Source: Lichenicola cladoniae (GTDB taxonomy: Bacteria; Pseudomonadota; Alphaproteobacteria; Acetobacterales; Acetobacteraceae). Taken from it: DNA of 64,000 bases. The DNA lies in assembly GCF_013201075.1 (NCBI RefSeq), contig NZ_CP053708.1:611001-675000 (forward strand), read 5' to 3'. Of this stretch, positions 42,132-59,347 are shown piece after piece; the stretch's first letter is position 1; the number at the start of each line of letters is the position of its first letter. A program made the translations under genes and the position numbers. The notes beneath the pieces are model-generated. The model worked only from the letters and a program-made list of their open reading frames with translations, made no database searches and was not told the origin of the DNA.

Positions 42132-42145
42132 TGGTGGAAGGGGTT
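42132..42145. repeat. attL: displaced 3' end of tRNA-Tyr
   Basis: TGGTGGAAGGGGTT, identical to the 3' terminus of the tRNA-Tyr gene at 59316-59329 and in the same orientation. It is 171 bases upstream of the integrase start. Confidence 0.88.
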
Positions 42146-42169
42146 TCACCTGCAACCATACTCGCCACA

Positions 42170-42247
42170 GTTCGCACCCATCCGTCAAATCTGGTAAAAC
42201 AGAGCGATTGCAACGGGGTTACGGTCGCCTCCGTTCGCACCAATCCG
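42170..42247. repeat. Pair of 15-base direct repeats next to attL
   Basis: GTTCGCACCCATCCG at 42170-42184 and GTTCGCACCAATCCG at 42233-42247, one mismatch, 63 bases apart. Position between attL and the integrase gene suits arm-type integrase or excisionase sites. Confidence 0.55.
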
Positions 42248-42265
42248 GAAGCGTCCGGACCCTCG

Positions 42266-42286
42266 GTGTGGGCTGGCGTGCGGGCC
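42266..42286. repeat. Left copy of a 21-base direct repeat near both element ends
   Basis: A 21-base sequence starting GTGTGGGCTGG is identical to 59243-59263, near the right end. The copies are 120 and 52 bases inside attL and attR. Probable arm-type recombination sites. Confidence 0.65.
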
Positions 42287-42316
42287 GGATCCGTTCGAAG
42301 GACGGAAGGGCGGTCG

Positions 42317-43543
42317 TTGCCAAAGCTGAACAACTTTTCGATGAAAAAGCTGACCCTGCCGGGGCGCTATGGAGACGGTAACGGCTTGTGGTTGCAGGTC
42401 CGGGACGCTCACCACCGGTCCTGGTTGCTCCGCTACAAGTTCGAAGGACGAGCCCGCCAAATGGGGCTCGGACCGGTTGAGCTTGTCACGCTCGCCGAGG
42501 CCCGTGAGGCGGGGCTAGAAGCGCGCAAGCTGGTCTTCAAGGGAATAGACCCTATCGACCATCGGAAGGCTGCCAAGGTCGCTAAGCTGGAGGTGCAGGC
42601 GGTCTTCACGTTCCAGCAGGTGGCCGAGCGCTATATCGCTGCGCACGAGGCCGGCTGGCGGAACGAGAAGCATCGCTACCAATGGGGCGCGACGCTCAAG
42701 AACCTCTGCTACCCGGTCCTCGGCGACAAGCCGGTCGACCAGATCGACACCGGCCTCGTGATGCGCATCCTGGATGGGCTTTGGCAGGAGAAGCCTGAGA
42801 CCGCTACCCGGGTCCGCGGTCGGATCGAGAGCATCCTCGACTATGCCAAGGCACGGGGATGGCGGGCAGGGGAAAACCCTGCACGATGGAAAGGCCACCT
42901 TGAGAACCTGCTCCCGAAACGGAGCAAGGTGGCCAAGGTGAAGCACCACGCGGCCCTGCCTTGGCTAGAGATGGGTTCGTTCATGGAGAAGGTACGCTCT
43001 GCCGAGGCCGTCTCTGCCTGGGCTCTCGAGTTCACCATCCTGACCGCTGCGAGAACAGGCGAGACGATTGGAGCCCGATGGTCGGAGATCGACGTCAACG
43101 CCGGAAGCTGGACGATCCCGGCCGAGCGGATGAAGGCAGGGCAGGAGCATCGCGTTCCCCTGTCCGGCCGGGCGATCGAGCTGCTGGAACAGGTCACGCC
43201 GTTCCGGACGTCCGACGCATCGTTCGTCTTTCCAGGGGCCCGAGTCGCGACCGGGTTGTCTCAGATGGCGTTGATCATGACCCTGCGCCGGCTTGGCCAC
43301 GGTCACATCACCGTGCACGGCTTCCGATCGACGTTCCGCGACTGGGCGGCCGAGTCGACCAACTACCCACGAGAGGTCGCCGAGGCCGCGCTGGCCCATA
43401 CCCTCCGCGACAGGGTCGAGGCGGCGTATCGGCGCAGCGACCTGTTCGATAAGCGCAGGCAGCTGCTGAGCGAGTGGGAGGCGTTCTGCGCACGGCCGGC
43501 GCGGATGACCGGCGATGTTGTGCCGATGAGGGCGGCGTCATGA
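42317..43543 (+). CDS. int: Tyrosine-type integrase, P4-like (DUF4102 N-terminus)
   Basis: 408 residues from a TTG at 42317 (GGAAGGG upstream), giving PKLNNFS..LPGRYGDGNGLWLQV, the usual start of this family; the frame is open back to an ATG at 42071, but that part overlaps attL and the arm sites. DUF4102 domain (1-90), central SAM-like domain, catalytic domain with R in TAARTGE (about 244), HxxR in VHGFRSTF (about 333) and tyrosine in AAYRRSD (about 370). It catalyses integration and excision at tRNA-Tyr. Its stop overlaps the next gene's ATG. Confidence 0.93.
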   Translation: MPKLNNFSMKKLTLPGRYGDGNGLWLQVRDAHHRSWLLRYKFEGRARQMGLGPVELVTLAEAREAGLEARKLVFKGIDPIDHRKAAKVAKLEVQAVFTFQQVAERYIAAHEAGWRNEKHRYQWGATLKNLCYPVLGDKPVDQIDTGLVMRILDGLWQEKPETATRVRGRIESILDYAKARGWRAGENPARWKGHLENLLPKRSKVAKVKHHAALPWLEMGSFMEKVRSAEAVSAWALEFTILTAARTGETIGARWSEIDVNAGSWTIPAERMKAGQEHRVPLSGRAIELLEQVTPFRTSDASFVFPGARVATGLSQMALIMTLRRLGHGHITVHGFRSTFRDWAAESTNYPREVAEAALAHTLRDRVEAAYRRSDLFDKRRQLLSEWEAFCARPARMTGDVVPMRAAS

Positions 43544-44328
43544 GCGACCAACCAGCGGTTTACGTACCGCAAGGACATATCGCCCTCCGGGAAGCGCTCG
43601 CCCGAGCTGCCGAAATCATTCGCCCGGCGATCGATATCCGCGCCGTCCTATCTGGCTCTGGTGAATGGTGGAGAGAGGGGTTCGACCAGCTAAGAGACTT
43701 CGCGACGCTTGATCTCGAAGATGATGCCGCAAGGACATCCAATGAAGATGAAGCAGCTGCAAGTTGGGTAATCGGAGTTGTTCGAGACCAGCTTCGCTTT
43801 TGCTTAGCTGAAGGACATATCACGTCTGTTGGGCAACGAGCTGATGGACGGCTGGATCCGGTTCCGCAGGAGTTTTGGCGAACAGACGCTGGCGGCCGGG
43901 CAATTTTGTCTCCGATGCCGTTTGACGGCTTCACTCGGGTCTTCCTGACCGACAAGGTGTTTGCAAAATGGGTGGGAGACGTGCCGCATTGGTTTGAACA
44001 ACAGAAAATAGTCGAGAAAGTCGATCAATCGGGCGACGTATCTCCCGAAACCTATTCTTTACCGTCAATGGCGCTGCCGCGAAAGCGAGCTCAATGCAAA
44101 GCTTTGCTGGCTAGGAATATGACCGCAAAGAACGCTGTCGTCGAAGCTGGGAAAGAGTTCGCCCGCCCGCATGTGGAAGCAAAGCTTGGCTTTGCTGTGT
44201 CCAACCCGGTTTACGACGAGGCATGGGGCGAGGCTGCTGAAGAGACAGGCCGCGAAACGCTCAAATCTGGAGGCCGAAAATCGAATTCGACGATGGCTGC
44301 GGCTAAATCGGCCACCCTAATCGATTAG
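43540..44328 (+). CDS. Unknown protein cotranscribed with the integrase
   Basis: 262 residues; ATG overlaps the int stop (ATGA). Mostly helical and acidic, no recognisable domain; segments include WVIGVVRDQLRFCLAEG and ALPRKRAQCKALLARNM. GC is lower than in the chromosome. The tight coupling to int suggests a role in the element's own maintenance. Confidence 0.6.
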   Translation: MSDQPAVYVPQGHIALREALARAAEIIRPAIDIRAVLSGSGEWWREGFDQLRDFATLDLEDDAARTSNEDEAAASWVIGVVRDQLRFCLAEGHITSVGQRADGRLDPVPQEFWRTDAGGRAILSPMPFDGFTRVFLTDKVFAKWVGDVPHWFEQQKIVEKVDQSGDVSPETYSLPSMALPRKRAQCKALLARNMTAKNAVVEAGKEFARPHVEAKLGFAVSNPVYDEAWGEAAEETGRETLKSGGRKSNSTMAAAKSATLID

Positions 44329-44419
44329 CTTTTCTGAACAAAGAAATCGCCCAGGGATTTTTTCCCCGCAGAGCTCGCGCCATCCTCCACCTCAGTTCTT
44401 AACGAACGAGGACAAACAA

Positions 44420-44611
44420 ATGCAGACCAACACACCTGACCCGAAGCCGCTGCTCGTCAACTGCCAGACCGCTCAGCACTTGCTCGGCGTTCGGAACACT
44501 AAGTTCTGGGCATTGGTGAAGGCCGGCGCGGTCGAGACCGTAAAGCTCGGAGATCGCACCATGGTTCGCTACGCCAGCCTCGAGAGACTCGCCGAACCGA
44601 AAGCCGCCTGA
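44420..44611 (+). CDS. AlpA-like/MerR-type excisionase or regulator
   Basis: 63 residues. A single winged helix-turn-helix like the AlpA/excisionase-family (HTH_17) proteins: VNCQTAQHLLGVRNTKFWALVKAGAVETVKLGDRT in segments, with the wing motif and a C-terminal YASLERLA. Such proteins act as excisionase (directionality factor) or transcription activator near P4-type integrases. Confidence 0.75.
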   Translation: MQTNTPDPKPLLVNCQTAQHLLGVRNTKFWALVKAGAVETVKLGDRTMVRYASLERLAEPKAA

Positions 44612-44783
44612 AGAAACAGCCCGCCCCGTGACCGAGGCAGGCTGCCAAACATGTCTTCCAACGCCCTCGCAAGCAGGAAGATAGTGGCGCCATCGGTCCG
44701 GAGCAACATGAAAGTTGCCCGACGTGCACACAAATACTGCTCATAGACCGCGCCAGGAGGCGTGCGTCTTCTTACTGCCTCAG

Positions 44784-44897
44784 ATGCCCAACCTCGACGG
44801 TGAGCCACGTTGTGCGCTCGTGCTGCCGAACCGGCTGCCGACCCTGCACCGGAACCTGACTGCAGCGCTTGCGGCAATGCAGGAGGCGATACCATGA
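44784..44897 (+). CDS. Small unknown protein
   Basis: 37 residues from ATG 44784 (MPNLDGEPRC), or up to 60 from a TTG at 44715. Its stop overlaps the next ATG (ATGA), which supports translation coupling. An AGGAGG at 44755 lies too far upstream for this ATG, so the true start is uncertain. No homology recognised. Confidence 0.35.
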   Translation: MPNLDGEPRCALVLPNRLPTLHRNLTAALAAMQEAIP

Positions 44898-45085: not shown

Positions 45086-45246
45086 GCTGGACCTCCGACA
45101 TCCAAGGCATCCAGGACGAAGCTGGCCAGCGCTGCGCGGTTGAGCCCGATGACATTCACGCCAAGGCCATGGAGGCGATGAGACGGATCTGGCCTGATGC
45201 TAGGCCGATCGTGATCAACTCGCAGCATGCAGCGGGGTATGCATGA
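45082..45246 (+). CDS. Small unknown protein
   Basis: 54 residues starting MSWTSDIQGIQDEAG, linked by ATGA overlaps to both neighbours. No family recognised; position suggests a replication-module accessory protein. Confidence 0.5.
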   Translation: MSWTSDIQGIQDEAGQRCAVEPDDIHAKAMEAMRRIWPDARPIVINSQHAAGYA

Positions 45247-47616
45247 ACGCGATCGGGATACCGCTGATCACCAGTGCCCTCGAACTCGGGCTGGCCGTGT
45301 TTCCGTGCGGCGCGAATAAGAAACCGGCGATCGGCAAGAAGGAAGGTGGTCGGGGCTTCCATGACGCGTCGCGTGACCACGCAGAGATTGAGCGGATGTT
45401 CGGACGCCACAACGCCAGACTGATCGGCGTTCCGACAGGCGAGGTGTCTGGCTGGGACGTGCTTGACCTGGACTACCGACACGGTGCCAAGGCGTTTGAG
45501 GATGCTAACGCGCATCGTATGCCAGAAACCAGAGTCCACGAGACGCAGAGCGGCGGCCGGCATCTCGTGTTTCTCCATGCGCCGGGTGTACGAAACTCGG
45601 CAAGCGAGATCGCACCCGGTGTCGACGTCCGCGGATCCGGCGGATACATCATCATGCCGCCGTCGCCAGGCTACCGGATCGTCAGCGACGCAGACCCGGT
45701 GCACTGGCCGACGTGGTTGCTTGAGTTGGTGCTGCCGGCGCCGGTCGTCGAGCGGCCCCGGGCAATATCGGCGCAGATTGCGCCGATATTCGTGTCATCG
45801 AAGCGGATCGAGAAGCTGATCGGCATCGCGCTCGGCAAGGTGCGGCAGGCTCCCGACGGCGCGAAGCACTACACGCTGCGCAACCAAGCAATCTGCCTTG
45901 GCGGCTTGCAGCACCTCGGCGATTTCAGCGACAGCGATGCGCTCACGTGGCTGATGGATGCGTTGCCCGACAGTGCCAAGGATCGGCGCGCGGCCGAGCA
46001 AACGGCGAAATGGGGCTTGGAGACGGGCAAGGCACGGCCATTCGAGCTCGAGGACCGGCCGTTGCCAGGACGCCCAACAGCAGTCAGCTCATCCGACGGC
46101 AACGCGGGTGAGGAACCGCCTCCGTTTGGAGAGGCCGAGCACGACCAAGAAGATGTTGAGCCACCCGAGCCAACGCCGCACCAGGGTATGGATAGTCAAG
46201 CCGGCTCCGACGCGATCGAAGCAGCTGTCGACGAGATGAACGCGCGCTACATGGTCGTCAATGAAGCCGGCAAGGCGGTGATCTACCAGCCCGACTTCGA
46301 TCCGGTCCTGCACCGCCGTTACTTCAACCGCTTGGCTTTTGAGGATCTGAACCGGCTCTATCTCAACCGGCAGGTGCAGGTCGGTGTCGACGAAAAAGGT
46401 CGGCCGCTCTTCAAGACAGCCTCTCACATCTGGCAACGCCATCATCGCCGCCGCCAGTATATCGACGGGATCCGCTTCGATCCATCGGGCCGGGATCTCC
46501 CAGCCGGCGTGCTGAACCTCTGGGAAGGCTTTGCGGTCACCCCGGCAACCGGCGACTGGTCGCTACTGCGCAAGCACATGCTGACGATCATCTGCGACGG
46601 TGACCGGGTGCGCTTCAACTACCTGCTGGGCTGGATGGCGCGCATGGTGCAGCGCCCGGCAGAGCAGGGCGAGGTCGCTATCGTCATGCGCGGCGGCGAA
46701 GGGACCGGAAAAGGCACGCTCGCCAAGGCATTGCTCAAGATCATGGGGCAGCACGGCCTGGCTGTCAGCAACTTCGAAGCACCTGGTCGGCAATTTTAAC
46801 GCCCACCTGCGCGACGCCATCCTGCTGTTCGTCGACGAGGCGTTCTTCGCCGGTGATCGGGCGCATGTCGGTGTGCTCAAGTCGCTCATCACCGAACCCT
46901 ATCTGACCGTCGAGGCCAAGTTCCAGAACGCGATCCAGAGCCCGAACTACTTGCACGTCATGATGGCGAGCAACGAGGAATGGGTGGTGCCAGCCTCGCA
47001 GGACGCGCGCCGCTTCTTCGTGCTGGAGGTGTCCGAGAAGATGAAGAACGACCACGCCTACTTCGGCGCCATCGCCGCACAGATGGAAGCCGGCGGATAT
47101 GAAGCCATGTTGCACGACTTGCTGGCGCTCGACCTGACCGGGTTCAACGTGCGCGCCGTGCCCGTCACTGAGGGCTTGCAGCGGCAGCGGAAGCTGAGCC
47201 TGCCGACGACCGAAGCATGGTGGCAGGACTGCCTCGACCGGGGATACGTCTTCCGCTCCAAGCTTGGCCTCGAGGCGGTCTTCGGCACATGGCACGAAGA
47301 GGTCAGTACTGAGATCCTGTTCGCCAGTTACCTCGACTTTGCGGAGCATCGGCGAGAGCGGCAGATCCTGAGCCGGGAGATGCTGGGACGCTTCATGAAG
47401 AAGATGGGCGGCAAGGCGAAACGGCTTAGCTATGCGCCGGTCGGGGAACACCTGACCGATGAAACGAGCGCTTATGGCAGCACGACCCGGAAGGCCAAGC
47501 CTGTCGAGCATCCCCGACCGCCGGGGTATTCGCTTGGCGGGATCAGCCTATCACGAGCCGATTTCGCCAAGAAAACAGGCCTGAATATTGAATGGAGCGA
47601 CCCGGATGGGGCTTAA
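45243..47616 (+). pseudogene. Prim-pol/DUF5906 primase-helicase, frameshifted
   Basis: Together about 790 residues. The first frame (45243-46799) has an archaeo-eukaryotic primase/polymerase domain (1-160; VFPCGANKKPAIGKKEGG, catalytic acidic GWDVLDLDY, GGRHLVFLHAPGV), a linker, and the DUF5906 helicase start with Walker A MRGGEGTGKGTLAKAL. It then ends at PGRQF*. The second frame continues properly with SKHLVGNFNAHLRD, FVDEAFFAGD and the rest to 47616. Removing one T in the TT at 46773-46774 restores N-S-K-H-L. In related elements this protein primes and unwinds the replication origin. Either the element has lost replication, or a base is wrong. Confidence 0.85.
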
Positions 47617-47622
47617 TCGCGT

Positions 47623-47910
47623 CAGGGTTAAAGACCTGACCAGGGTGCTTCGATCTTCTCTGACGCGGAAAGATGTAGTTCCAGTCTACGTCCGTCAGGG
47701 TTTCCAGGGTTTCCAGGGTTGAAAAACGCAAGTCGCCAGAACTTTTCCCCCAGGCCGATTTTCGGCCGAGCGTAGTGGCTCCCCAGGGATTATTCTTCTA
47801 CCTTTTCAAATAACCCTGACAACCCTGCCTACCCTGGCAGCATATTGAAATTGCAGTGGAATATCGCGGCAGGGTTCCAACCCCTGACCGAACGTAACCC
47901 TGACACCCTG
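47623..47910. repeat. Iteron-like CAGGGTT/AACCCTG cluster, putative replication origin
   Basis: In about 290 non-coding bases the heptamer CAGGGTT occurs at 47623, 47696, 47705, 47714 and 47870 (plus strand), and its complement AACCCTG at 47812, 47821 and 47896, with near copies at 47641, 47831 and 47905. Three copies at 47696-47720 are spaced nine bases apart. Between them lie AT-rich tracts (47785-47812, 47845-47865). This directly follows the primase-helicase gene, the usual place for a phage or satellite origin. Confidence 0.65.
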
Positions 47911-48216
47911 ACATATCGGGGCGTTATACCGTTATTTGGAAAGACGTAGGCCAAATAACCAGCGCCAGAAGAAAATCCGGCCACGCTGCGAATACTTCCA
48001 ACAAAACCTGAACCGACGATCGCAGAGCCGTGCGTCCGATAATGTGGGCTGACGCGTGTGCTATCCGGTGCATGCTCCCCGCAGCCAGACGCAGCCTACA
48101 CTTTCGGCGGACGCGTGCTCCGTCGAACAAACTTTTTTCTGTGTCATGACCGCCCGACAGTGTCCGCTGTTATTCTCTGTAGTTCGCAGTCATACGCTAC
48201 TGTCCGAGTAAAACAT
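47911..48216. other. Non-coding stretch between origin and late genes
   Basis: No convincing gene: frames on both strands lack start signals and family features. It probably carries leader and promoter sequences for the operon that starts at 48264. Confidence 0.4.
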
Positions 48217-48260: not shown

Positions 48261-48263
48261 TAT

Positions 48264-48623
48264 ATGCGTAGGATCGGACCGCATTCTTCTGCCGTTGCAC
48301 TGGCGAAACTCGATGGCCGCACGCGCCAGGGGCGACTGCTCCGCGACATACGCGCGGATCTCGTAAAGCACGTCGGCGGAAGCCCGAGCGCGACCGAACG
48401 CATTCTGATTGACCAGGCGGCGCAGCTGCGCCTGCGCCTCGCACTAATGGACGCTGAAGATGCTGGTGTTTTGAGTGAGCGCAACGCACGCGAGTATCTG
48501 AGCTGGTCGAGCGCGTTGGGCAGGATGCTGCGTCAGTTAGGGCTAAAGGCCGCAGCCAAGCCGGCCCCGAGCCTCGATGACCTCATGACCCGGCTCACCC
48601 CTTCCCGCGGCATCGCCGCATGA
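48264..48623 (+). CDS. Unknown protein, first of the packaging module (possible small terminase)
   Basis: 119 residues, mostly helical and basic (GRTRQGRLLRDIRADLVKHVGG, SATERILIDQAAQLRLRLALMD). Placement a few genes before the terminase large subunit makes a DNA-recognition (TerS) role possible, but no HTH family is recognised. No Shine-Dalgarno is visible; translation may be leaderless or controlled by the adjacent inverted repeat. Confidence 0.55.
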   Translation: MRRIGPHSSAVALAKLDGRTRQGRLLRDIRADLVKHVGGSPSATERILIDQAAQLRLRLALMDAEDAGVLSERNAREYLSWSSALGRMLRQLGLKAAAKPAPSLDDLMTRLTPSRGIAA

Positions 48624-49003
48624 CCGAAAGCTATCGGATCGTCGTGCTCGATGAAGCAATGGGTCGGCGCTGCAGAGCGCAAGCCAAGCTTGGACTCGCG
48701 TTCGATGCCGCCTGGTTCCGTGTCGAACCCATCACCAAAGATTCCACCCCAAAACCGAAGGTAACCACAATGGACCAGGACCTTTTCGTGCAGCTGCTTG
48801 CATTCCTGACTGACAACTTCAAACCGACCCCCGACCAGCTTCGGGAGTTCGTCGAGATGTGCGGCATGCAGATGCCGGCCGAGCAAGCCGCCGCGCCTGC
48901 CCTCGCTGCTGACGGAAGCCTGCGTCGCCTCCCGCGCGCATCCACCAGTGCACAGATCGCCACTCGCGCCACGCGCTTCCCGAATGCAGGCCGGTTGGGC
49001 TGA
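48620..49003 (+). CDS. Unknown protein
   Basis: 127 residues; ATG overlaps the preceding stop. An internal in-frame ATG (48771, MDQDLFVQLLAFLTDNF) begins a better-defined helical part and could be the real start. C-terminus is Ala/Arg/Thr-rich. No family. Confidence 0.5.
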   Translation: MTESYRIVVLDEAMGRRCRAQAKLGLAFDAAWFRVEPITKDSTPKPKVTTMDQDLFVQLLAFLTDNFKPTPDQLREFVEMCGMQMPAEQAAAPALAADGSLRRLPRASTSAQIATRATRFPNAGRLG

Positions 49004-49006
49004 GCC

Positions 49007-49732
49007 ATGGCACTGCTTGCACGAAAGCCCACCCCCCTTTCGCCGGAGCGGGCTGCGCTGGCCGAGGCAATCGCCAATCACCGGGCGCACGCCGCGACAC
49101 GCGAGGCTGTTGCGAACATGGCGTCCTCGGCGACAAGCGGCATTGCTCTCGCCCGTCGCGCGGTCTCGCTGGCTGAGGATGGTGTTCTGGAAGCACAAGC
49201 CGCTGCAGGCCGCTTCTTGATCGCGACCGCCAAGGGCGAGGCATCTGAAGCGCCTCGCACGGTCCGACAGGCCCGTGATGACTTGACCGACGCACTCGAC
49301 AACCTGGCAGCAGCCGAGGTGGCGCAGGCAGCGGCGCAAACAGAGCTCGAAGGCCTGTCCGACTACATGTCGACGACCAACCTCAAGCGCGCTGCCGTCG
49401 CGGTGCTGCAGGCAGACGGGGCCTCCGCAGCGCTAGCGGTTGCTGCTGAGGTCGGTCGGCTGCAGCAAGAGCTCTCGCGGCACGGGCAGTTGCTGAACTT
49501 CCTCGTCGCGACGGGCGCCTTCGCCGTGTCGGACCGCGTCGGCATGTATCACGGCCAGCCGGCCGACGAAGCGGTCCGCATCGCCCATGAGCGGCTCAAT
49601 TCGCCTCCCTCGAGCTGGCGTGCCCTCACCGATCGCACCGACGCGGCAGCCCCGTGGCGTGCCGCTCTTGAGGCTCTTGAAGGCGATGCGACGGCACCGC
49701 TGCCGAGCGTCACCGCGATCGGAGCACCCTGA
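49007..49732 (+). CDS. Coiled-coil protein upstream of terminase
   Basis: 241 residues, alanine-rich, long predicted coiled coil (about 40-180; RQARDDLTDALDNLAAAEVA). Composition resembles phage scaffold-like or packaging accessory proteins, but no domain is recognised. Stop overlaps the next ATG (TGATG). Confidence 0.55.
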   Translation: MALLARKPTPLSPERAALAEAIANHRAHAATREAVANMASSATSGIALARRAVSLAEDGVLEAQAAAGRFLIATAKGEASEAPRTVRQARDDLTDALDNLAAAEVAQAAAQTELEGLSDYMSTTNLKRAAVAVLQADGASAALAVAAEVGRLQQELSRHGQLLNFLVATGAFAVSDRVGMYHGQPADEAVRIAHERLNSPPSSWRALTDRTDAAAPWRAALEALEGDATAPLPSVTAIGAP

Positions 49733-49965
49733 TGTCGGGCTCTTCCGACACCTCGCAGCCGTCTGACCGGTCCGCATTCTGCGCTGCCATCCTGGGCGGC
49801 GGTCCCGGTGGTGGTCTCCCTGCCCGAGCTCAGGCGGTAGCGAATTGCCAGCTCCGTCTGCCCGTCGACTGCGCGTTCATGCTGGGCATGGCAGACACCG
49901 CCACCTACGCGCAGGCGGCGGCACTTTTGCAGATGCGCTGGTCGTCCGGTCAGGCAGGCTATTGA
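49732..49965 (+). CDS. Small unknown protein before terminase
   Basis: 77 residues, low complexity Ser/Gly/Ala start, then AFMLGMADTATYAQAAALLQMRW. Its stop overlaps the TTG start of the terminase (TTGA), indicating translational coupling. Confidence 0.5.
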   Translation: MSGSSDTSQPSDRSAFCAAILGGGPGGGLPARAQAVANCQLRLPVDCAFMLGMADTATYAQAAALLQMRWSSGQAGY

Positions 49966-51443: not shown

Positions 51444-51598
51444 ATATTCCCGGCAGTCATATGCGGTCGGGCACGAGCTTCAGTGCCGTAGGGCTGGAGG
51501 AAGGTAACTCGACCAGAGCCTTCACAAATTATCGGTCGAGAGCCCGCGGGTGCGCTCCTGGCGCCGCGGCGGGCAACCAACGGAGCGTGTGCACATGA
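51440..51598 (+). CDS. 52-residue linker ORF between terminase and fibre gene
   Basis: ATG overlaps the terminase stop (ATGA) and its own stop overlaps the ATG of the next gene (ATGA). The product (MNIPGSHMRSGTSF...) has no recognisable domain. Phage genes after a terminase normally encode the portal; this ORF may be the first codons of a portal gene fused to the last codons of the gene that once preceded the fibre, left by an internal deletion. It may also be a real small protein. Confidence 0.45.
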   Translation: MNIPGSHMRSGTSFSAVGLEEGNSTRAFTNYRSRARGCAPGAAAGNQRSVCT

Positions 51599-52431
51599 CC
51601 ATCGCCCATTATCTGTCGCTGCCATACCCGAGCAGCGGAACCTACGAAAGGATCAGCAAGACCCTGATCCCGTTCGGTTCTAATGATGGCGCTCTACAGA
51701 ACCTTGATGCCAGGATATATTTCTCCGCATCGACCTATATCCCGGCGTCCGTGGGCGAGACAGCCATTATACCGGCTCTGGCACAGTCATTGTTTCAGAC
51801 TGAAGACTGGTTCATCGGGATTGACCCAGAGGGCCGAGCGACGTTCGGCGTGAAGAACTTCTACGCTTTGACAAAGGAGCAGTGGCTCCAAGACTGCTGG
51901 CCAAACCCGACGGTGTGGAACCCTTGGGCTATGTCCGTTACCTCTACAGTCCAAATCCCGACCTTCAACTCTAGTCCCGATGGACTTTTTCTCCGGGTCT
52001 ACGTGAACGCTTACGGTGGATCAGGTAACTATCCAGGCGCAAGCACTTCCCCATGCGTCGTGTTCTTCACCTCGCCAGACGCGGGCGCAACCTTCGTTCA
52101 AATTGGAGTTCCGGTTCCGCTACCTCCAAGAACGACGCCCTATGACTCCGGAACCTTTGAACAAAACAATATGCTTGGTGCCGGGCCTTACGTTGAATTG
52201 CAAGGAGGCTATCCATCAAGCGCCAACAACCTTTACCTTGCTGGCCCTCTCAATGGCGCCCTCGGCTCGACGGGTATATCACTCAATACGCTACCCGATA
52301 TGCGGGTCTATAAGTACAGCCTGCAGAATTCCTACGCACAAAGTCTCTGCAATTACGACTTCACGAGCGGTTCTAGTCTTGCAGTTGTGGCTCCTAGCCT
52401 AGTCGCATTCGGCGGCGCGGTTCTCGTCTAA
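51595..52431 (+). CDS. Fibre-like beta-rich protein, unknown
   Basis: 278 residues, rich in Ser, Thr, Tyr, Pro and Gly, very few charged residues, without signal peptide. Base composition is clearly less GC-rich than the flanks. The look is of a phage tail fibre tip or receptor-binding jelly roll, but no motif proves it. Its stop overlaps the next ATG (TAATG). Confidence 0.5.
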   Translation: MTIAHYLSLPYPSSGTYERISKTLIPFGSNDGALQNLDARIYFSASTYIPASVGETAIIPALAQSLFQTEDWFIGIDPEGRATFGVKNFYALTKEQWLQDCWPNPTVWNPWAMSVTSTVQIPTFNSSPDGLFLRVYVNAYGGSGNYPGASTSPCVVFFTSPDAGATFVQIGVPVPLPPRTTPYDSGTFEQNNMLGAGPYVELQGGYPSSANNLYLAGPLNGALGSTGISLNTLPDMRVYKYSLQNSYAQSLCNYDFTSGSSLAVVAPSLVAFGGAVLV

Positions 52432-52898
52432 TGATCGCGCTCGGCCGCCGCATCCTGACGCACAAGCCGCATATCGACGAGCTGGTGCAGGCTGCGATCG
52501 CTACCGCGGCTCCATCGCTGCCAGCGCTCTATGCCGCCACTGCTGGCAAAGTCGATCTGACCTACCTGCACCGACCTGATACAAAACTGCCCAGGCACAT
52601 CCTGAAGCGGCATCGCAAGTGCTTGGCGATCCTAAGCGATGTGGCACTGCCTGATGCTGAAGGATCACCTGGCCCGGCAGCATGGCCGATCGCGAACAGC
52701 CTGCACACGTACGAGCCAGTTGCGTGCTTGATCCACAGCGATACTGCCGATGCTGAACAATACCTCGCTGCCGTCACGCTGGCGATAGAAGCGGGACCGG
52801 TCCTACTGATCGAGTGCGGTCCGGAACGGGTCTCGGACTGGGAATGGTTAGTGACGCCGTGGTGCCCGACGGTTGCTGTCTTGCAGAGGAAAGCCTGA
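52431..52898 (+). CDS. Unknown protein between fibre-like and tape measure genes
   Basis: 155 residues, mixed alpha/beta. Start of the gene is helical (HIDELVQAAIATAAPSL), then LTYLHRPDTKLPRHILKRH. No known domain. Position suggests a tail chaperone or baseplate-adjacent role, which is inference only. Confidence 0.5.
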   Translation: MIALGRRILTHKPHIDELVQAAIATAAPSLPALYAATAGKVDLTYLHRPDTKLPRHILKRHRKCLAILSDVALPDAEGSPGPAAWPIANSLHTYEPVACLIHSDTADAEQYLAAVTLAIEAGPVLLIECGPERVSDWEWLVTPWCPTVAVLQRKA

Positions 52899-52901
52899 GT
52901 C

Positions 52902-54845
52902 ATGGATCAGACCCTAGAATCATATCTCGTCCGACTTGGCTTCGCGGTCGACGGCGCCAGTGAGCGCGAGTTCACGGAAACGCTGGCTCGAGGGAAGGTC
53001 GCGGCACTTGCAGCAGGTGCAGCACTAACCGGCCTAGTCGCCACCATTACCAAGGTGGCAAGCGCATATGAGGCGCTCTACTACCAATCCGGCCGGGTTC
53101 AAGCCTCCGTCGGCAATATCCAAGCCTTCGCTTATGGCTTGTCCCAGGTCGGCGGATCCGCCACGAGCGCGAAGGCTGCGCTCGAAAGCATGGGCAACTT
53201 CCTACGCAGTAGCCCGGGCAGCGAAGGCTTTTTCGCTCGGCTTGGTGTTCAAACCCGTGACGCGCGCGGCGGGCTTCGAGACACCACGCAAATCCTGCGG
53301 GACTTCGCCGGGGCATTGAAAACAATGCCGACGTATCGATCGCAGGCTTATGCGTCAGTCCTGGGGATTGATCCCGTCACGCTTCAAGCGCTGATGAGAG
53401 ATACAGGCGTGTTCTCTGCGCAGCTGAAGCAGATGTACGCAGCAGCCGGCGTGAACTCGGAACAGGCCGCCCGCGGTGGCGCACTCTTCATGCAGCAGCT
53501 GCGGAGCCTTGGTGCCGCTCTGCAGGTGCTACGCGACAAGGTTGCAATCTCGCTCTTCCGAGGTGTCGGCGGCGATATCGAACGCCTGCGCAAGTTGCTG
53601 GTCGACAATTTCGGGAGGATCTCCGCTGCGATCGTCGCTGCAAGCAAGTTTGTCACGGCGATGGGCTGGGCTCTGATGCAGCTGGTGGCCCGATCAGCAG
53701 AACTGATCGACCGGCTCGTAGATTGGTTCAGCCATCTCGACCGTGGCACTCGTCAGTGGACCGAAGCCATCATCCTGCTGTTAGGTGCCTGGCGGCTTCT
53801 CAACAAAGGCTTCCTGGCGTCCCCGCTCGGTCGCATCGTGGCCCTCGGCGTCGCACTTGTTGCACTGTACGACGACTACAAGACATTCAAGGCAGGCGGC
53901 AAAAGCTTAATTGATTGGGCCGTATGGGAGCCTGGGATCAACTCGCTGCTCGACAGCATCGGGAAGATCGAGGGCGCCTTCAAGGACATGTGGCCAAACA
54001 TCCGAGGGTATCTCGCGCCCCTGATGAGCTTCCTCGGCCATGAATTCGCCAAGACGCTGACAAACAGCATGGCGGATGTGGCCGACCTGATGCAGGCCGC
54101 CACTGACAGTCTCCACGGCCGCTGGGCCTCTGCTCGAGCTCATCTTGCCGCCATCGGCGCCCGCGAGACCGCTTCGACACAGGACGACATGTCAGCCCTC
54201 GGCACGCTCGGGAACGCCGAAAGCCGCGCATCAGGCGGCGCGTTCGTCAGCGGCCAGACAGCCCGGAACGAGGCATCCGGCTTCAGCCTGCTCACCAGCC
54301 TCGGCCTAGACCGCAACCACGCGCTGGCCATGCTGGGCAACTTCGAGCAGGAAAGCAGCCTCAACCCCGGCGCGCGCAATGGCCACCACTACGGCATCGA
54401 GCAATGGGACGACAGCCGCGCCGACGCGATCAAGGCGCAGACCGGGATCGACGTACGAACCGCAGGCTATGCCGACCAGATCAAGGCGGCGGCGTGGGAA
54501 GTCATGTACGGTAACGAGCGGAACCACGCCAAGGGCTTCTTCGGCGCGGGCGATCTCAAGTCGGCGACGGGGCGCTTTGCCTCGGATATTGAGCGGTCCG
54601 GTGAGCATCCCGGCATGGTCGGCTTCGATAACCGGATCGCGAACTCACTGAATGCGGATAACCGGCTGCGTGCCGGCGCCGGCATCAGCAGCACCAACGT
54701 CGGTGGTTCGCCCCGCGTCAATCAGACCAACACGTTCCACATCAGCGGCGCCCAAAGCCCCGACGCGGTGGGTAAGAGCGTGTTGCGGCATCAGGATGTG
54801 GCGATGGAATCCATCGTCCGGAACATGGGGCCGCTGTCGCGATGA
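52902..54845 (+). CDS. Tail tape measure protein with phage tail lysozyme domain
   Basis: 647 residues. N-terminal part is a helical tape measure (LVRLGFAVDGASEREF, hydrophobic helix AALAAGAALTGLVATITKVA; further hydrophobic helices about 280-320). Residues about 460-570 are a tail-tip lysozyme domain (GLDRNHALAMLGNFEQES..YGIEQWD), with the catalytic glutamate probably in FEQES. It would set tail length and locally cut peptidoglycan during DNA injection. A short tape measure of this size implies a small tail. Confidence 0.8.
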   Translation: MDQTLESYLVRLGFAVDGASEREFTETLARGKVAALAAGAALTGLVATITKVASAYEALYYQSGRVQASVGNIQAFAYGLSQVGGSATSAKAALESMGNFLRSSPGSEGFFARLGVQTRDARGGLRDTTQILRDFAGALKTMPTYRSQAYASVLGIDPVTLQALMRDTGVFSAQLKQMYAAAGVNSEQAARGGALFMQQLRSLGAALQVLRDKVAISLFRGVGGDIERLRKLLVDNFGRISAAIVAASKFVTAMGWALMQLVARSAELIDRLVDWFSHLDRGTRQWTEAIILLLGAWRLLNKGFLASPLGRIVALGVALVALYDDYKTFKAGGKSLIDWAVWEPGINSLLDSIGKIEGAFKDMWPNIRGYLAPLMSFLGHEFAKTLTNSMADVADLMQAATDSLHGRWASARAHLAAIGARETASTQDDMSALGTLGNAESRASGGAFVSGQTARNEASGFSLLTSLGLDRNHALAMLGNFEQESSLNPGARNGHHYGIEQWDDSRADAIKAQTGIDVRTAGYADQIKAAAWEVMYGNERNHAKGFFGAGDLKSATGRFASDIERSGEHPGMVGFDNRIANSLNADNRLRAGAGISSTNVGGSPRVNQTNTFHISGAQSPDAVGKSVLRHQDVAMESIVRNMGPLSR

Positions 54846-55351
54846 CGCTCGAGATCGGCAAGTCGGGCAGCAAGGCGTTGCTGGCGGCCGTCCGGCAGCT
54901 GGCGACAACGGAGGTGCTGGTCGGCTTCCCGGCAGGCGAGGCGCCCCGCGAAGACGGCTCCAAGCTGACGAACGCGGCGATCGCCTATATCCAGGACAAC
55001 GGCGCGCCCGAGGCCAACATTCCAGCTCGGCCGTTCATGCGACCAGGCATCGAGGCGGTAAAAGATCAAATCGCGGTCGCCCTGGGCAAGGCCGGCCGGG
55101 CGGCGATCAATGGCGACAGTGCCGGCGTCCAGGCGGGGCTCACGGCGGCCGGCTTCGCCGCCGAGGGCTCCATCAAGGAGCGGATTACCGACGGGATCGA
55201 TCCGCCCCTAGCTGCGGCCACGCTGGCTGCACGGAAGCGCAAAGGCTTCCAGGGTGAGACGCCGCTGCTCCGGTCGGGTGAGCTCCGGAACGCGGTGCGG
55301 CATGTCCTCCGGGACCGGGGCGGGTGGGTGATTTATGTTCGGAAGCGGTGA
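54842..55351 (+). CDS. Phage tail/neck assembly protein (gp10/virion morphogenesis-like)
   Basis: 169 residues; ATG overlaps the tape measure stop. The segment IPARPFMRPGIEAVKDQI and GETPLLRSGELRNAVRH are typical of minor tail or head-tail joining proteins of the HK97 gp10/virion morphogenesis kind. In most phages such a gene precedes, not follows, the tape measure gene. Confidence 0.6.
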   Translation: MTLEIGKSGSKALLAAVRQLATTEVLVGFPAGEAPREDGSKLTNAAIAYIQDNGAPEANIPARPFMRPGIEAVKDQIAVALGKAGRAAINGDSAGVQAGLTAAGFAAEGSIKERITDGIDPPLAAATLAARKRKGFQGETPLLRSGELRNAVRHVLRDRGGWVIYVRKR

Positions 55352-55544
55352 CCCAGCTTAACGCGAGCCACCACGCGGGGTGCCATCGACGGGCTTGATC
55401 GCAGCGAATATAGGACTACTTTCCTAATAACTGTCGAGGAGCAAGCCCAAAAATGGGCACACGGTCTCATTAACTTCAAATCGCGGTTTAGGCGTTGACT
55501 GCTCTTTAGTGGCTACAGAAAGTCTCGTCTGGGGGCTAGTTTTG

Positions 55545-55775
55545 ATGACAAAATTTACCATCCGAGCGCACTGGGACACTGATGCACGCGTTTGGTGGGC
55601 CGAGAGTGAGGACGTCCCCGGCCTGGTCGCCGAGGCCGAGACCCACGAGGCTCTCATTGCTGACTTGCGCATGATCGTCCCGGAACTCCTGATGTTGAAC
55701 ACGCCGGAAGTTCATCATGACAGGATGATCATGAGCATCATTTCAGATCAGGCTGAGGAAGTAAGTTACGCCTGA
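55545..55775 (+). CDS. HicB-like antitoxin (DUF1902)
   Basis: 76 residues. HicB-type partial RNase-H-like fold: FTIRAHWDTDARVWWAESEDVPGLV in two strands, ETHEALIADL helix. Placed before the toxin with a TGATG overlap, the antitoxin-first order. It sits in a lower-GC segment between tail genes and the repressor, a typical cargo position. Confidence 0.8.
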   Translation: MTKFTIRAHWDTDARVWWAESEDVPGLVAEAETHEALIADLRMIVPELLMLNTPEVHHDRMIMSIISDQAEEVSYA

Positions 55776-55966
55776 TGCCTGCGACATTCGATCGTGCGCT
55801 ACATTCGTTACTACGTGACGCTGGGTGTTGCTGGGTTCGAGATGGACGCCATCCAGTGTATTACAGCCCGATTTCAGGATTAAATTTTCCCGTTCCGGTG
55901 GGGATCAAAAGCGCACACACCGCTAACAATGTTCTAAAGCAAGCTGGACTTCCAAAGCATTTCTAG
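55775..55966 (+). CDS. HicA-like mRNA interferase toxin
   Basis: 63 residues. Double-stranded RNA-binding-like fold; the catalytic histidine is in DGRHPVYYSP, followed by VPVGIKSAHTANNVLKQAGL typical of the alphaproteobacterial YcfA/HicA branch. It cleaves mRNA when the antitoxin is lost, stabilising the element. Confidence 0.78.
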   Translation: MPATFDRALHSLLRDAGCCWVRDGRHPVYYSPISGLNFPVPVGIKSAHTANNVLKQAGLPKHF

Positions 55967-56436: not shown

Positions 56437-56489
56437 CGACGTTATCCTCGGATAATTGACTTAGTGTTTGCTTCTCGTCGATAGCTCTA

Positions 56490-56801
56490 TCAGGCGAGCC
56501 CCGGCGCGAAAATATGCCCAGGGGCTCCATTGGCGAGCAGGACCGTCATCTTGTGAAAGTCCGGCATCGGGCACGGCGCCGCTCGATACCGCGAAAGGAC
56601 AGGGGCGCAGATTGTTGCCATTAGAGGCGAGAACACCAAGAACCGGTTTACCCCCAGATTATGATCACTCCGACTGACCAGCAGGCAAGCTTCTTTTGGC
56701 GAGAGCGCCCCCACCCATGGGCGCTGACAAGCATCCATTATGCGAGCCTCTTCTCCGCCCAATGACATGCTGAGCGTGATCTCGATCGTCACCCAGGACA
56801 T
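56490..56801 (-). CDS. Doubtful hypothetical protein
   Basis: 103 residues with no recognisable domain; start at MSWVTIEITLSM. Support is only the open frame and its place in the reverse-strand block that ends with the XRE repressor. If not real, 56437-56867 is non-coding. Confidence 0.3.
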   Translation of the reverse strand: MSWVTIEITLSMSLGGEEARIMDACQRPWVGALSPKEACLLVSRSDHNLGVNRFLVFSPLMATICAPVLSRYRAAPCPMPDFHKMTVLLANGAPGHIFAPGLA

Positions 56802-56867
56802 AACCTAGACCTCTGTTTCTGCACGCAGTCCGGCTTCGATCAGGCGGCGGATGGCCGTGCCTCGCAC

Positions 56868-57089
56868 TCAATCTTGCGACGGATACGGGCCTGTATCGTC
56901 AATTTCGAAATGCCCGCCGTAGGAAGCCGCCTCTCTCCATCGCCTCAACGCTGCACCAGGGCTGCGGTCGCTCGTTGTGATCGAGCGGCCATACCGGTCT
57001 CCCGTAGCAGTCCATTTTGACCGAGATCGTGGATCTTGGTTGACAGTTACCTCGCAAGAGGTGCCCTGGACGATGACCGTGTGCTTCAC
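56868..57089 (-). CDS. Small protein coupled to the XRE repressor
   Basis: 73 residues with alternating strands (HTVIVQGTSCEVTVNQD, KWTATGDRYG) and a helix (PGAALRRWREAASYGG). ATG overlaps the repressor stop (ATGA), so it is its operon partner. It could modulate the repressor or be an antirepressor-like factor; not known. Confidence 0.55.
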   Translation of the reverse strand: MKHTVIVQGTSCEVTVNQDPRSRSKWTATGDRYGRSITTSDRSPGAALRRWREAASYGGHFEIDDTGPYPSQD

Positions 57090-57349
57090 TTCCCGTTCCC
57101 GCCTTTCAAGCTTACCCCAGGCGCGACTCCGTTCGTAAACTCGACGCCGGCAGCCTCAAGGGCGGCGCGGATGGCGGTAATCGTCCTCTGCTGAGGTGAG
57201 CCTTCTCCACGCTCAAATCTGACCACGGTCCTTTTGGGCACTCCGCTCGCTGAAGCGAGCTGATCTTGCGACCAGTCTACAAATGCTCGAGCCGCGCGCA
57301 ACTGAGAAGGAGTGATGGCAATTTCAGTGCCGTTTACGCTTGCATCCAC
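57086..57349 (-). CDS. XRE/Cro-type helix-turn-helix repressor
   Basis: 87 residues. HTH region ITPSQLRAARAFVDWSQDQLA-SASGVPKRTVVRFERG, then a short helix and flexible tail. It is divergent from the 57462 operon across 112 bases, the arrangement of a phage immunity region, and probably represses that operon and itself. Confidence 0.8.
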   Translation of the reverse strand: MDASVNGTEIAITPSQLRAARAFVDWSQDQLASASGVPKRTVVRFERGEGSPQQRTITAIRAALEAAGVEFTNGVAPGVSLKGGNGK

Positions 57350-57461
57350 AGGATCATTATGGCACTAGGGTAGCCGTTCCGCAAGGAACAACGGCCGAGC
57401 GAAGGGTGGCAGCCCTCACGCCCGGCCTAACCGCAACCCTGCACGCTGGAGCGACAGGATC
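57350..57461. promoter_or_regulatory. Divergent immunity-type control region
   Basis: 112 bases between the XRE gene and the rightward operon. It must carry both promoters and the repressor operator. I see no single clear palindrome, so the operator is not placed. Confidence 0.4.
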
Positions 57462-57725
57462 ATGGCTTCGCACACCATACCACCACCCGGCACAGTCCGG
57501 GGAGTGACCGCAGGTGGCTATCCGCCCTGCAATCCGCCGACCGTTACTCTTCCGCTGGGCAATCGGCATCAAATTGAGCTCGCCATCGGGGCCCTAATCG
57601 ACGTCCTCGACCGTCACGACGGGGATCCGGACCTCGAGCCCGACGCCGACCGTGAGCCGGACACCGCTGCAAGTTTCAGCGTCACGCCGGCCGGGCACCT
57701 GGCGCTCGCGGGGGTGCGGTCATGA
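57462..57725 (+). CDS. Small unknown protein, start of right-arm operon
   Basis: 87 residues: proline-rich start, a helical core (HQIELAIGALIDVLDRHDGD), acidic stretch and SFSVTPAGHLALAG. AGGA precedes the ATG. Stop overlaps the next start (ATGA). No family recognised. Confidence 0.5.
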   Translation: MASHTIPPPGTVRGVTAGGYPPCNPPTVTLPLGNRHQIELAIGALIDVLDRHDGDPDLEPDADREPDTAASFSVTPAGHLALAGVRS

Positions 57726-58159
57726 GCCGCACCACACGCCGAGAGGTGCTGGGCGCTGGCGCCTTCACCGCGATGTTCGGCATCGCGGCGGCCGCGATCG
57801 CCAAGCCCGACGTGCAGGTATCCGCCGCGGTGCCGCTGCAGCCAGACGGCGAGCTCATTGCTCTTTGCTCCCGGTTTGACGACCTGGAGCGGAAGATGGA
57901 GGCCACCTACTATTTAGGTCCCTACTCCGAAGCGAAAGAACTGGCTGCTGAGGCGCAACAGGCGTCGTTGCATGCGGAACAGGACGAGTTGCTCGAGCAG
58001 ATCACGCCGATCCGCGCCACCACGCTCGCCGGCTTCCAAGCTCGCGCTCGAACGCTTGTGTTCTGGAATAAGGAGATCGAACGGAAGGGCGAAAACGGCG
58101 ATTGGTCCAATCGGATGGTCTGGGCCCTGGTACGCGACCTGAACGGAGGGCAGGCTTAA
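57722..58159 (+). CDS. Tat-signal protein, unknown (paralogue 1)
   Basis: 145 residues. Twin-arginine-like start SRTTRREVLGAGAFTAMFG, hydrophobic stretch and AIAKP cleavage-like end, then a helical domain (DGELIALCSRFDDLERK..MVWALVRDLNG). Paralogous to the next gene. Such short Tat-like proteins recur in alphaproteobacterial prophages; role unknown. Stop and next start overlap (TAATG). Confidence 0.6.
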   Translation: MSRTTRREVLGAGAFTAMFGIAAAAIAKPDVQVSAAVPLQPDGELIALCSRFDDLERKMEATYYLGPYSEAKELAAEAQQASLHAEQDELLEQITPIRATTLAGFQARARTLVFWNKEIERKGENGDWSNRMVWALVRDLNGGQA

Positions 58160-58641
58160 TGGCCGTTCTCTCACGCCGCAGTCTCATTGGCGCCGGCACC
58201 GCGACCGCGATGGTCGGCATCACCACTGCGGCAATCGCCGCCCTTCCGCACGCCGTTCCATCGTCCGACGACGCCGAGCTCATGGCCATCGGTCGCGAGG
58301 CCGCCTCCCTGATCGAGAAGCGCAGGCCGTTGGAAGCGCGGTGGTGGTCGCTTCCAGCAGGAACTCGTCAGTACGACAATGCTCAGAGGGAAGAGCTCAC
58401 CGAAGTCAGTGAAGCAATGCAGCCCATCGACGATCGGCTGTCCGATCTGTCGGATCGGTCACTCGTTCTGCGAGCATCTAGCCGCGAGGCCATGATCGCC
58501 AAGGCGCATCTCATTCGGCACGAGATGGAAGTCGTACACGTGACGGCCGGTGTCCTGGATCCTGAGATGTTCGATCCGCACGAGGCCATCGTGTGGTCGC
58601 TGCTCGAGGATCTTCTCGGACCGGACGTTGCCCATGGCTGA
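58159..58641 (+). CDS. Tat-signal protein, unknown (paralogue 2)
   Basis: 160 residues. Start LSRRSLIGAGTATAMVG with a hydrophobic core, then DAELMAIGREAASLIEK and the C-terminal IVWSLLEDLLG that match paralogue 1 in place and pattern. Probably exported folded or membrane-held. The mutual similarity suggests tandem duplication followed by divergence. Confidence 0.6.
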   Translation: MAVLSRRSLIGAGTATAMVGITTAAIAALPHAVPSSDDAELMAIGREAASLIEKRRPLEARWWSLPAGTRQYDNAQREELTEVSEAMQPIDDRLSDLSDRSLVLRASSREAMIAKAHLIRHEMEVVHVTAGVLDPEMFDPHEAIVWSLLEDLLGPDVAHG

Positions 58642-58744
58642 TCACCAGACCCGACCGTTCGTGTTCCCGCCGCGTGAGGATCCGCCGCTGCCCAGGTCGG
58701 TTCCCTCTTGGTTGCCAGCGCCGTGGCGCGGGAGGTCGTTATGA
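58634..58744 (+). CDS. Tiny proline-rich protein
   Basis: 36 residues, starting MADHQTRPFVFPP. Overlaps the preceding gene by eight bases and the next by four (ATGA). Supported only by its place in the overlapping chain. Confidence 0.35.
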   Translation: MADHQTRPFVFPPREDPPLPRSVPSWLPAPWRGRSL

Positions 58745-58899
58745 CCGGGCCCGTCCTCGTGCCGCTGCTGCCGGTCGAGATCCGCGCGCTCGTGCTGTGG
58801 CACCGGCTCGAGGCGCGCGGCCGGGGTGAGCTTGGCACCGGCGTGCACATGCGCCGGGTCGATGAGCTGCAGGCGCTGCTGGATGGGAGGCCGGGATGA
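58741..58899 (+). CDS. Small unknown protein
   Basis: 52 residues, mostly helical (PVEIRALVLWHRLEARG, RRVDELQALLDG). Joined to both neighbours by ATGA overlaps. No family recognised. Confidence 0.4.
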   Translation: MTGPVLVPLLPVEIRALVLWHRLEARGRGELGTGVHMRRVDELQALLDGRPG

Positions 58900-59183
58900 C
58901 CGTCCGATCCCAGTCTACTGAAAAGAGGTGGTGGCCCCGTTTGCACACGTTGGGGCGGGGCCACCAGGGCGCACACTACAGCAACATATTCTCAGTGTGC
59001 GCCGCGCGACCAAACCAAGAAAAAGACAGTGAGCCTGTCCGTAATAACAATTCTCAGAGGCCGCAACGCCTGACGCTCGGTCTCACCCTAATGATCCTGT
59101 TGCCGCTATCGAACGGGATGGTCCGGCTGACCGGAGCATTGTGCCGATTCACGCTGCGTTTGGCCGCGAGGAGCCAGGCATGA
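58896..59183 (+). CDS. Small unknown protein with one hydrophobic segment
   Basis: 95 residues, polar and basic first half, then LTLGLTLMILLPLSNGMVRLTG, a possible membrane helix. ATG overlaps the previous stop, its stop overlaps the next ATG. A holin- or antiholin-like role is conceivable but unproven. Confidence 0.4.
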   Translation: MTVRSQSTEKRWWPRLHTLGRGHQGAHYSNIFSVCAARPNQEKDSEPVRNNNSQRPQRLTLGLTLMILLPLSNGMVRLTGALCRFTLRLAARSQA

Positions 59184-59347
59184 CGAAGCGCAATCGAACC
59201 GCGGATCAGGCGCTACGCCTGTCCGCAACAGTTCAAGAAATAGTGTGGGCTGGCGTGCGGGCCCGGCAGGCTGTCACCGGAAACGCAAGTGAGAACAACG
59301 CCTTAACTACGAAATTGGTGGAAGGGGTTGGATTCGAACCAACGTAG
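59180..59347 (+). CDS. Small protein running into the tRNA-Tyr gene
   Basis: 55 residues from ATG 59180 with GAGGAG upstream. The last ten residues (LVEGVGFEPT) are encoded by the antisense of the tRNA-Tyr 3' end beyond attR, so before integration the protein had another C-terminus. It also covers the right copy of the 21-base repeat. Low confidence. Confidence 0.3.
   Translation: MTKRNRTADQALRLSATVQEIVWAGVRARQAVTGNASENNALTTKLVEGVGFEPT
59243..59263. repeat. Right copy of the 21-base direct repeat
   Basis: Identical to 42266-42286 and in the same orientation, 52 bases inside attR. Confidence 0.65.
59316..59329. repeat. attR within the 3' end of tRNA-Tyr
   Basis: TGGTGGAAGGGGTT: the complement is the terminal 14 bases of tRNA-Tyr including CCA. 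The tRNA stays intact because the element supplies an identical 3' end. Confidence 0.88.

Follow-up and report, generated by a model that had tools for sequence, protein, structure and literature searches.

The DNA considered here is a window of 64,000 nucleotides from Lichenicola cladoniae (GCF_013201075.1, NZ_CP053708.1, 611,001-675,000; all coordinates are those of the window), in which positions 42132-59329 form a 17.2 kb element at a tRNA-Tyr gene. The element is probably a phage satellite of the integrative kind that depends on a helper, packages its own DNA, and forms chimeric tails, and not a fragment of a prophage. It has its own integration and replication genes (the helicase frame being broken in this copy) and an incomplete set of virion genes, in which an intact terminase large subunit (TerL) and an intact tape measure protein (TMP) lie within the element boundaries, the tail module is incomplete, and no head gene is recognised. 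Gene content, boundaries, the family of relatives, the lack of recognised head genes, the exchange of TMPs, and purifying selection in relatives are read from the sequence; helper dependence, packaging, chimeric tails, and the role of a small terminase subunit (TerS) are proposed from it. For the family as a whole, about an even chance is given to a widespread satellite lineage, mainly of Alphaproteobacteria, that has its own TerL and a lineage-specific TerS, lacks a portal, and would use the helper tail as a kit, importing and swapping TMPs and, in some members, hubs, tail-completion proteins, or lone capsid or protease genes to match changing helpers.

The boundaries are exact repeats, as an earlier note on this DNA had described; they measure 14 bp (42132-42145 and 59316-59329), the longest string common to both element ends. 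The right copy forms the 3′ end of the tRNA-Tyr gene (59316-59401, minus strand). In one genome of the same genus (G003), both flanks are present within a 2.5-kb stretch, with tRNA-Gly and tRNA-Tyr 1.3 kb apart; in two others (G001 and G002), only the tRNA-Tyr side lies within the 2.5-kb stretches read. The element carries the following main features:

42132-42145, no strand: left attachment site (attL), 14-bp repeat matching 59316-59329 exactly
42341-43543, plus strand: tyrosine integrase, start uncertain (frame open back to 42071); Pfam Phage_integrase, Phage_int_M, and Arm-DNA-bind_3, and PHROG integrase
45243-46799, plus strand: Prim-Pol (E 2e-26), continuing into the first part of the helicase (residues 314-510 homologous to the helicases of relatives)
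46600-47616, plus strand: remaining helicase in another frame (DUF5906 E 4e-16; PHROG DNA primase E 1e-37)
47617-47915, no strand: iteron cluster, candidate replication origin (11 copies at 47623-47910, in both orientations)
48264-48623, plus strand: TerS candidate, marker gene of the portal-less family
49989-51443, plus strand: TerL, start inferred (frame open from 49845); PHROG E 4e-19
52902-54845, plus strand: TMP with a C-terminal lysozyme domain (phrog_2276 E 5e-79; Phage_lysozyme2 E 1e-12)
54842-55351, plus strand: tail-completion/Neck1 protein (phrog_222 E 2e-33; 32% identity to a protein of Hafnia phage yong1, E 9e-27)
59316-59329, no strand: right attachment site (attR) within the tRNA-Tyr 3′ end, placed by the exact repeat and the tRNA position

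The integrase, the prim-pol/helicase, and the lysozyme-bearing tape measure had been named in the earlier note from the sequence, and the profile matches bear them out. Its repeat-rich putative origin also stands, since CAGGGT/ACCCTG iterons occur 11 times in 664 nt compared with a mean of 0.37 (maximum 3) in 1000 shuffles and a background of 0.43 per equal length across the remaining window.

The terminase was likewise named correctly. TerL is recognised by its PHROG match, scores below the Pfam cut-off, and matches a TerL nuclease domain in a PDB profile (E 4e-4). Its open reading frame (ORF) is open and intact, and the positions that are invariant in an alignment with 17 relatives are kept. 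Only 5 of 50,697 named phage records hold a match (23-32% identity), and relatives occur in 21 of 299 genomes from its bacterial family. With the single protein as query, viral and genome contigs yielded no relatives; alignment-based scans yielded 93 in IMG/VR and 127 in GTDB genomes, of which the best 79 and the best 80 loci, respectively, were kept. Most of the GTDB hosts belong to the Alphaproteobacteria (Acetobacteraceae, Methylobacterium, Bradyrhizobium, Rhizobiaceae, Phyllobacteriaceae, and others); some are Gammaproteobacteria, and a few metagenome bins carry the labels Nitrospira, Acidobacteria, Betaproteobacteria, or Patescibacteria. Altogether 162 loci with a TerL ORF were analysed, 145 of which are distinct after the removal of near-identical ones (TerL <97% identity).

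Most of these loci lack a recognisable portal. Portals were named by PHROGs and by profiles built from those hits; in the loci counted as portal-less at that stage, 93 ORFs beyond TerL had no label and measured 300 aa or more, of which 87 were scanned, giving 89 together with two capsid candidates. Portals that came to light in these scans are included in the counts, and the PHROG family tables cover 25 of 177 and 25 of 78 families listed, so that small families may be hidden. A portal was found in 27 of the 145 loci and none was recognised in 118, of which 86 have at least 5 kb read after TerL. The earlier note had held that a normal capsid module in all relatives would make the element a deletion derivative; the portal-less majority runs counter to this. 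One locus counted as portal-less (L072) has a 478-aa ORF without PHROG match right after TerL and could be a phage. The two kinds of loci differ in further genes. A homolog of the 48264 product is encoded in 111/118 portal-less and 4/27 portal-bearing loci, and an integrase in 72/85 and 2/12, respectively, of those with at least 6 kb upstream. The shared core of the family is TerL together with the 48264-type gene; the TMP is not universal. Phages that have a portal close after TerL share the TerL family (L126, L063, L064, L077, L099, and L102).

The boundaries of the window element recur in its relatives. In the 72 portal-less loci in which an integrase precedes a TerL on the plus strand (a set that differs from the 72 of the integrase count above), exact repeats of 13-54 bp at a tRNA 3′ end were found in 29, the window included, and 43 failed, short contigs among them. 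The repeats are at least 33 bp long in 21 of the 29, compared with 14 bp in the window. These bounded elements measure 8.0-18.0 kb (median 12.7 kb) and are integrated at 11 kinds of tRNA genes (Lys, Glu, Tyr, Ser, Arg, Asn, Cys, Ala, Leu, His, and Thr). They hold 305 ORFs between the 48264-type gene and attR. The 104 of these that had no label and measured 140 aa or more were scanned, with no portal among the 25 of 78 families listed; these families do include head proteases (three ORFs, in the commonest family) and two ORFs for major head proteins.

In the window element, none of the 24 ORFs scanned against Pfam, PHROGs, or both (from 147 mechanical ORFs of at least 60 aa in 40000-62000, most of them nested or antisense) matches a portal, capsid, head protease, sheath, tube, or baseplate protein, in agreement with the list of genes that had been noted as not seen. 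No scanned product turned out to be the hidden portal or capsid protein that the earlier note had considered. The product of 51595-52431 stays without a homolog in Pfam, PHROGs, named phages, or 384 other alphaproteobacterial genomes, and its single-sequence model is useless (predicted local distance difference test, pLDDT, 29); it could therefore be a wholly new kind of head protein.

The tail genes are intact as well. The TMP is an open frame of 647 aa with 33% identity to the yong1 TMP over residues 4-640. What had been called a tail-assembly protein is indeed a tail gene with an open frame and is more exactly a tail-completion/Neck1 protein, for which no meaningful PDB match was found. In yong1, the homologous gene lies six annotated genes before the TMP, with a protein annotated as XkdK-like, a sheath type, in between. 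In the window, the tail-completion gene follows the TMP and overlaps its end, which is the opposite order, so that no single deletion from an order such as that of yong1 explains the arrangement. Tail shortening was considered as the reason for a satellite TMP and rejected, as the closest phage TMPs are nearly equal in length (647 aa in the window compared with 669 aa in SEN34 and 662 aa in yong1; 580 aa in L060 compared with 577 aa in RHph_N17). Much shorter satellite TMPs had been suggested by PHROG profile lengths, which real phage relatives did not uphold; only the distantly related TMP of group B looks short (562 aa compared with 1275 aa in Yazdi-M, 27% identity).

A TMP is encoded in 40/118 portal-less loci (34/86 if only those with 5 kb or more of sequence beyond TerL are counted) and lies within the element limits in 10/29 bounded elements. 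They fall into seven sequence groups: A (the phrog_2276 type, 17 loci), D (7), E (6), C (5), B (3), F (1), and a distant type found in Virus Rctr16k (1). Some assignments to group C are based on weak matches (L048 E 0.001, L042 E 0.02), the TMP of L076 lies on the strand opposite to TerL, and that of L139 has no match in named phages. Hub homologs were found in 15/145 loci and tail-completion homologs in 23/145, some of the latter portal-bearing. On a TerL tree of 141 of the 145 loci (representatives below 380 aa excluded), several TerL groups track host groups, for example in Methylobacterium, Bradyrhizobium, and Acetobacter. The TMP groups (39 loci) need 15 changes on this tree, compared with a mean of 21.2 (lowest 18) in 200 shuffles and a minimum of six for seven groups, which indicates that the TMP partly follows TerL and is often exchanged. 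Single pairs illustrate both directions: L091 and L180 share 46% identity in TerL and 73% in the TMP, and L060 and L154 (91% and 42%) and L177 and L178 (94% and 46%) show the reverse. Ten dN/dS estimates (three TMP, two hub, and five tail-completion pairs), all from relatives without the window and many near silent-site saturation, range from 0.07 to 0.23. In the testable pairs, the sequences thus show tail genes under purifying selection.

The 48264 product is likely the TerS of the family. It is small, its predicted model is helical (pLDDT 81), and its gene overlaps TerL or sits at most 30 nt away in 82/115 loci. A fold comparison with a viral library placed four entries named as terminase small subunits within the first 14 hits (ranks 2, 5, 6, and 14), all of them non-significant with E above 0.01.

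A mechanism can be proposed for the satellite. The integrase would excise the element from tRNA-Tyr, and the prim-pol/helicase would replicate it from the iteron origin. TerL and the probable TerS would then package the element DNA into helper procapsids through helper portals; a motor without a recognised portal implies that the satellite TerL must dock on a foreign one. Tail tube, sheath, baseplate, and fibres would come from the helper, and the TMP and the tail-completion protein from the satellite, which in some relatives would supply the baseplate hub as well. A TMP of its own would direct tails to the heads of the satellite, make the satellite independent of any block on the helper TMP, and bring the satellite lysozyme to the entry step.

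A possible helper resides in the same genome. A prophage (L235-L236, G000:C1:1466001-1504000) encodes a portal (C1:1479520), a capsid protein (1481925), and a TMP of the phrog_2276 family (1491345, a 677-aa ORF), which a group A profile derived from the satellites finds at E 2e-26. Its membership in the same TMP family makes this prophage a candidate helper. In another genome of the same bacterial family (G017), a tail region contains a TMP with 33% identity to that of the window along with a hub and genes of baseplate type; the queries used detected no portal in this stretch.

Several results weigh against the proposed reading of the element and its family. The TerL tree comes from a quick search without bootstrap, and on it portal-bearing loci are partly nested among portal-less ones (L126, L063/L064), with at least nine changes of portal state; this nesting indicates an exchange of TerL between phages and satellites. 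In 46 of the 86 well-covered portal-less loci, neither a TMP nor a hub or tail-completion gene was found, so that the tail module is optional. A lack of head genes is not family-wide either, because about eight portal-less loci have a homolog of a head protease or capsid protein. In L158 (Jiella), positions 11721-15743 encode a lone capsid protein, a TMP, and a protease homolog, and no portal is recognised; eight portal-less loci have homologs of its protease or its capsid protein (L071, L073, L076, L086, L113, L141, L151, and L158 itself), and L165 has one on the other strand. The window element has no homolog of either protein. The 48264 family has no PDB match by sequence and no significant PDB fold match, so that it stays a TerS candidate. 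As for the candidate helper, the window TMP gave no direct BLAST match to the TMP of the resident prophage, and the hub and tail-completion profiles found nothing in that prophage. Finally, the helicase frame is broken near 46.8 kb: the Prim-Pol ORF stops at 46799 and homology resumes in another frame, and the same region is a single open frame in the relative L033 (1223-2848). The break could reflect a true loss of the frame, an error in the assembly, or programmed frameshifting; unless one of the latter two applies, this copy may not replicate itself.

The broken frame would also suit an ordinary prophage reduced by deletion, with the head genes and most of the tail genes gone, as would the orphans adjoining TerL and the true phages among the TerL relatives. 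The earlier note had regarded a deleted prophage as the main alternative. This is now unlikely and largely refuted, because the mostly portal-less relatives carry integrases and clean, exact boundaries at many tRNA genes. TerL and the tail genes of the window are open, the TMP adjoins the tail-completion gene in an order that is not collinear with yong1, and the 48264-type gene is tied to portal-less loci. The satellite TMP and tail-completion protein might instead act as decoys that jam the tail assembly of the helper in a dominant-negative manner and are absent from transmitted particles. Satellites and prophage defences are reported to interfere with tail assembly (PMC12987554), and the tail is only partly encoded. 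This explanation is considered unlikely, as the TMPs are full-length relative to those of the closest phages and keep an enzyme domain, and as the TMP of the Vibrio cholerae satellites described in the same source is built into particles. Alternatively, the lysozyme or transglycosylase end of the TMP and its tip-side region could alter the passage through peptidoglycan or membrane and thus the host range of injection. Residues 1-365 of the L060 TMP are about 50% identical to Rhizobium phage TMPs with the remainder not aligned, and the C-terminal enzymes vary (Phage_lysozyme2 in the window and L035, SLT in L046). A role mainly in entry is nevertheless improbable: some members carry hub and tail-completion genes, which speak for a part in assembly, identity between the L091 and L180 TMPs is high again at residues 400-700, and several TMPs have no Pfam enzyme domain.

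The element carries a number of further genes, listed below.

43474-44328, plus strand: early protein adjoining the integrase; no Pfam or significant PHROG match
44420-44611, plus strand: AlpA-like small helix-turn-helix protein (weak, HTH_17 E 0.01)
48620-49003, plus strand: ORF after the TerS candidate; no homolog among 3391 survey ORFs
49007-49732, plus strand: coiled-coil protein of a family near TerL in relatives (28/145 loci; coiled-coil matches only)
49732-49965, plus strand: small ORF shared with L047, by homology
51595-52431, plus strand: orphan of 278 aa adjoining TerL
52431-52898, plus strand: orphan of 155 aa; no Pfam, PHROG, or survey-ORF match
55509-55966, plus strand: HicB-like (DUF1902) and HicA-like pair, from a scan match
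57089-57349, minus strand: XRE-type repressor (HTH_3 E 2e-8), with homologs in relatives
57722-58641, plus strand: two related small proteins, probable cargo, with homologs in L047, L048, and L049

The repressor had been named in the earlier note and is supported by its HTH_3 match; the AlpA-like regulator named there has a helix-turn-helix match, albeit a weak one. The HicB/HicA pair had been missed, and a HicB/HicA match is also present at the left end of L049. The tandem small proteins at 57722-58641 have signal-like N-termini and are probably cargo. A tail needle was considered for the 49007 family and rejected, as its best PDB match (E 3e-4) is probably due to coiled-coil bias; as a guess, the family could provide a scaffold or size factor, perhaps in a role like that of Sid in P4. 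The genome that contains the window (G000) measures 6.06 Mb, compared with 3.7-4.1 Mb in four genomes of the same genus, and its estimated contamination is 4.62%.

Among the known satellites, phage-inducible chromosomal islands (PICIs) of Gram-negative bacteria and P4-like elements use the TerL of their helper and are not known to encode a tape measure. The window element resembles them as a compact island with an integrase, an AlpA-like regulator (weak here), a primase/helicase with an iteron origin, a family size range of 8-18 kb, and no head genes; it differs from them by its own intact TerL. The Pseudomonas satellite AH14b likewise has an integrase, AlpA, and a primase, and no terminase was found in it according to PMC4936722. 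Capsid-forming PICIs (cf-PICIs) encode portal, capsid, protease, and connectors together with TerS and TerL, as described in PMC10690885. They share with the window an own TerL and a tail that comes mostly from the helper, and putative tmp genes are mentioned for a sampling of them in PMC12987554. In the window, TerL is accompanied by a TerS candidate only, and no portal, capsid, protease, or connector is recognised.

The PICI-like elements (PLEs) of V. cholerae, the closest precedent, carry out their own DNA replication. PMC12987554 (Nature 2026) describes that they encode alternative TMPs and that PLE11 particles combine the satellite TMP and hub with helper tail parts; its authors regard this as new among satellites and report putative tmp genes in PLE-like elements and the cf-PICI sampling. 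The likeness lies in a satellite-encoded TMP (with the hub in PLE11) that is joined with helper capsid and tail parts. No TerL is reported for PLEs in that text, in which the term terminase is absent as far as accessible, and PLEs rely on a chaperone for tail assembly and on the defence protein Rta, neither of which is seen in the window. Compared by description only, the window element differs by its own TerL, its tail-completion protein, temperate-type boundaries at a tRNA gene, and other hosts. Another comparable record is Virus Rctr16k (KX853514.1, 16.7 kb, partial), which has an integrase, a replication gene, a TerL (24% identity), and a TMP_3 protein of 580 aa in an order that is compatible with that of the window if circular. 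Its TerL is very distant, its TMP belongs to another group, and it was deposited as a virus; by its gene content it may be a satellite. No paper that names it was found in the open-access literature searched.

The earlier note had called the combination of TerL and a tape measure an unusual type of satellite. This holds for an own motor and a TMP without a head; satellites with a TMP as such have been known since 2026. No description of a TerL/TMP satellite family was found in the open-access literature (preprints and most subscription journals lie outside this scope), and within the literature searched, an own motor that is combined with an exchangeable tail ruler, with no head recognised, across Alphaproteobacteria appears to be new.

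The TMP-bearing members of the family include cultured strains (Shinella fusca DSM 21319, Brytella acorum LMG 32668, and Methylobacterium strains). As unlike TMP groups recur beside a satellite-type TerL in these strains as well, the role of the TMP is testable in several hosts. If the proposed reading is true, the family would form a class between classical PICIs and cf-PICIs, with an own motor, a borrowed head, and a hybrid tail. Tail rebuilding would then be a general strategy of satellites with an origin separate from that in PLEs, and satellites that rebuild the tails of their helpers may be more common than known.

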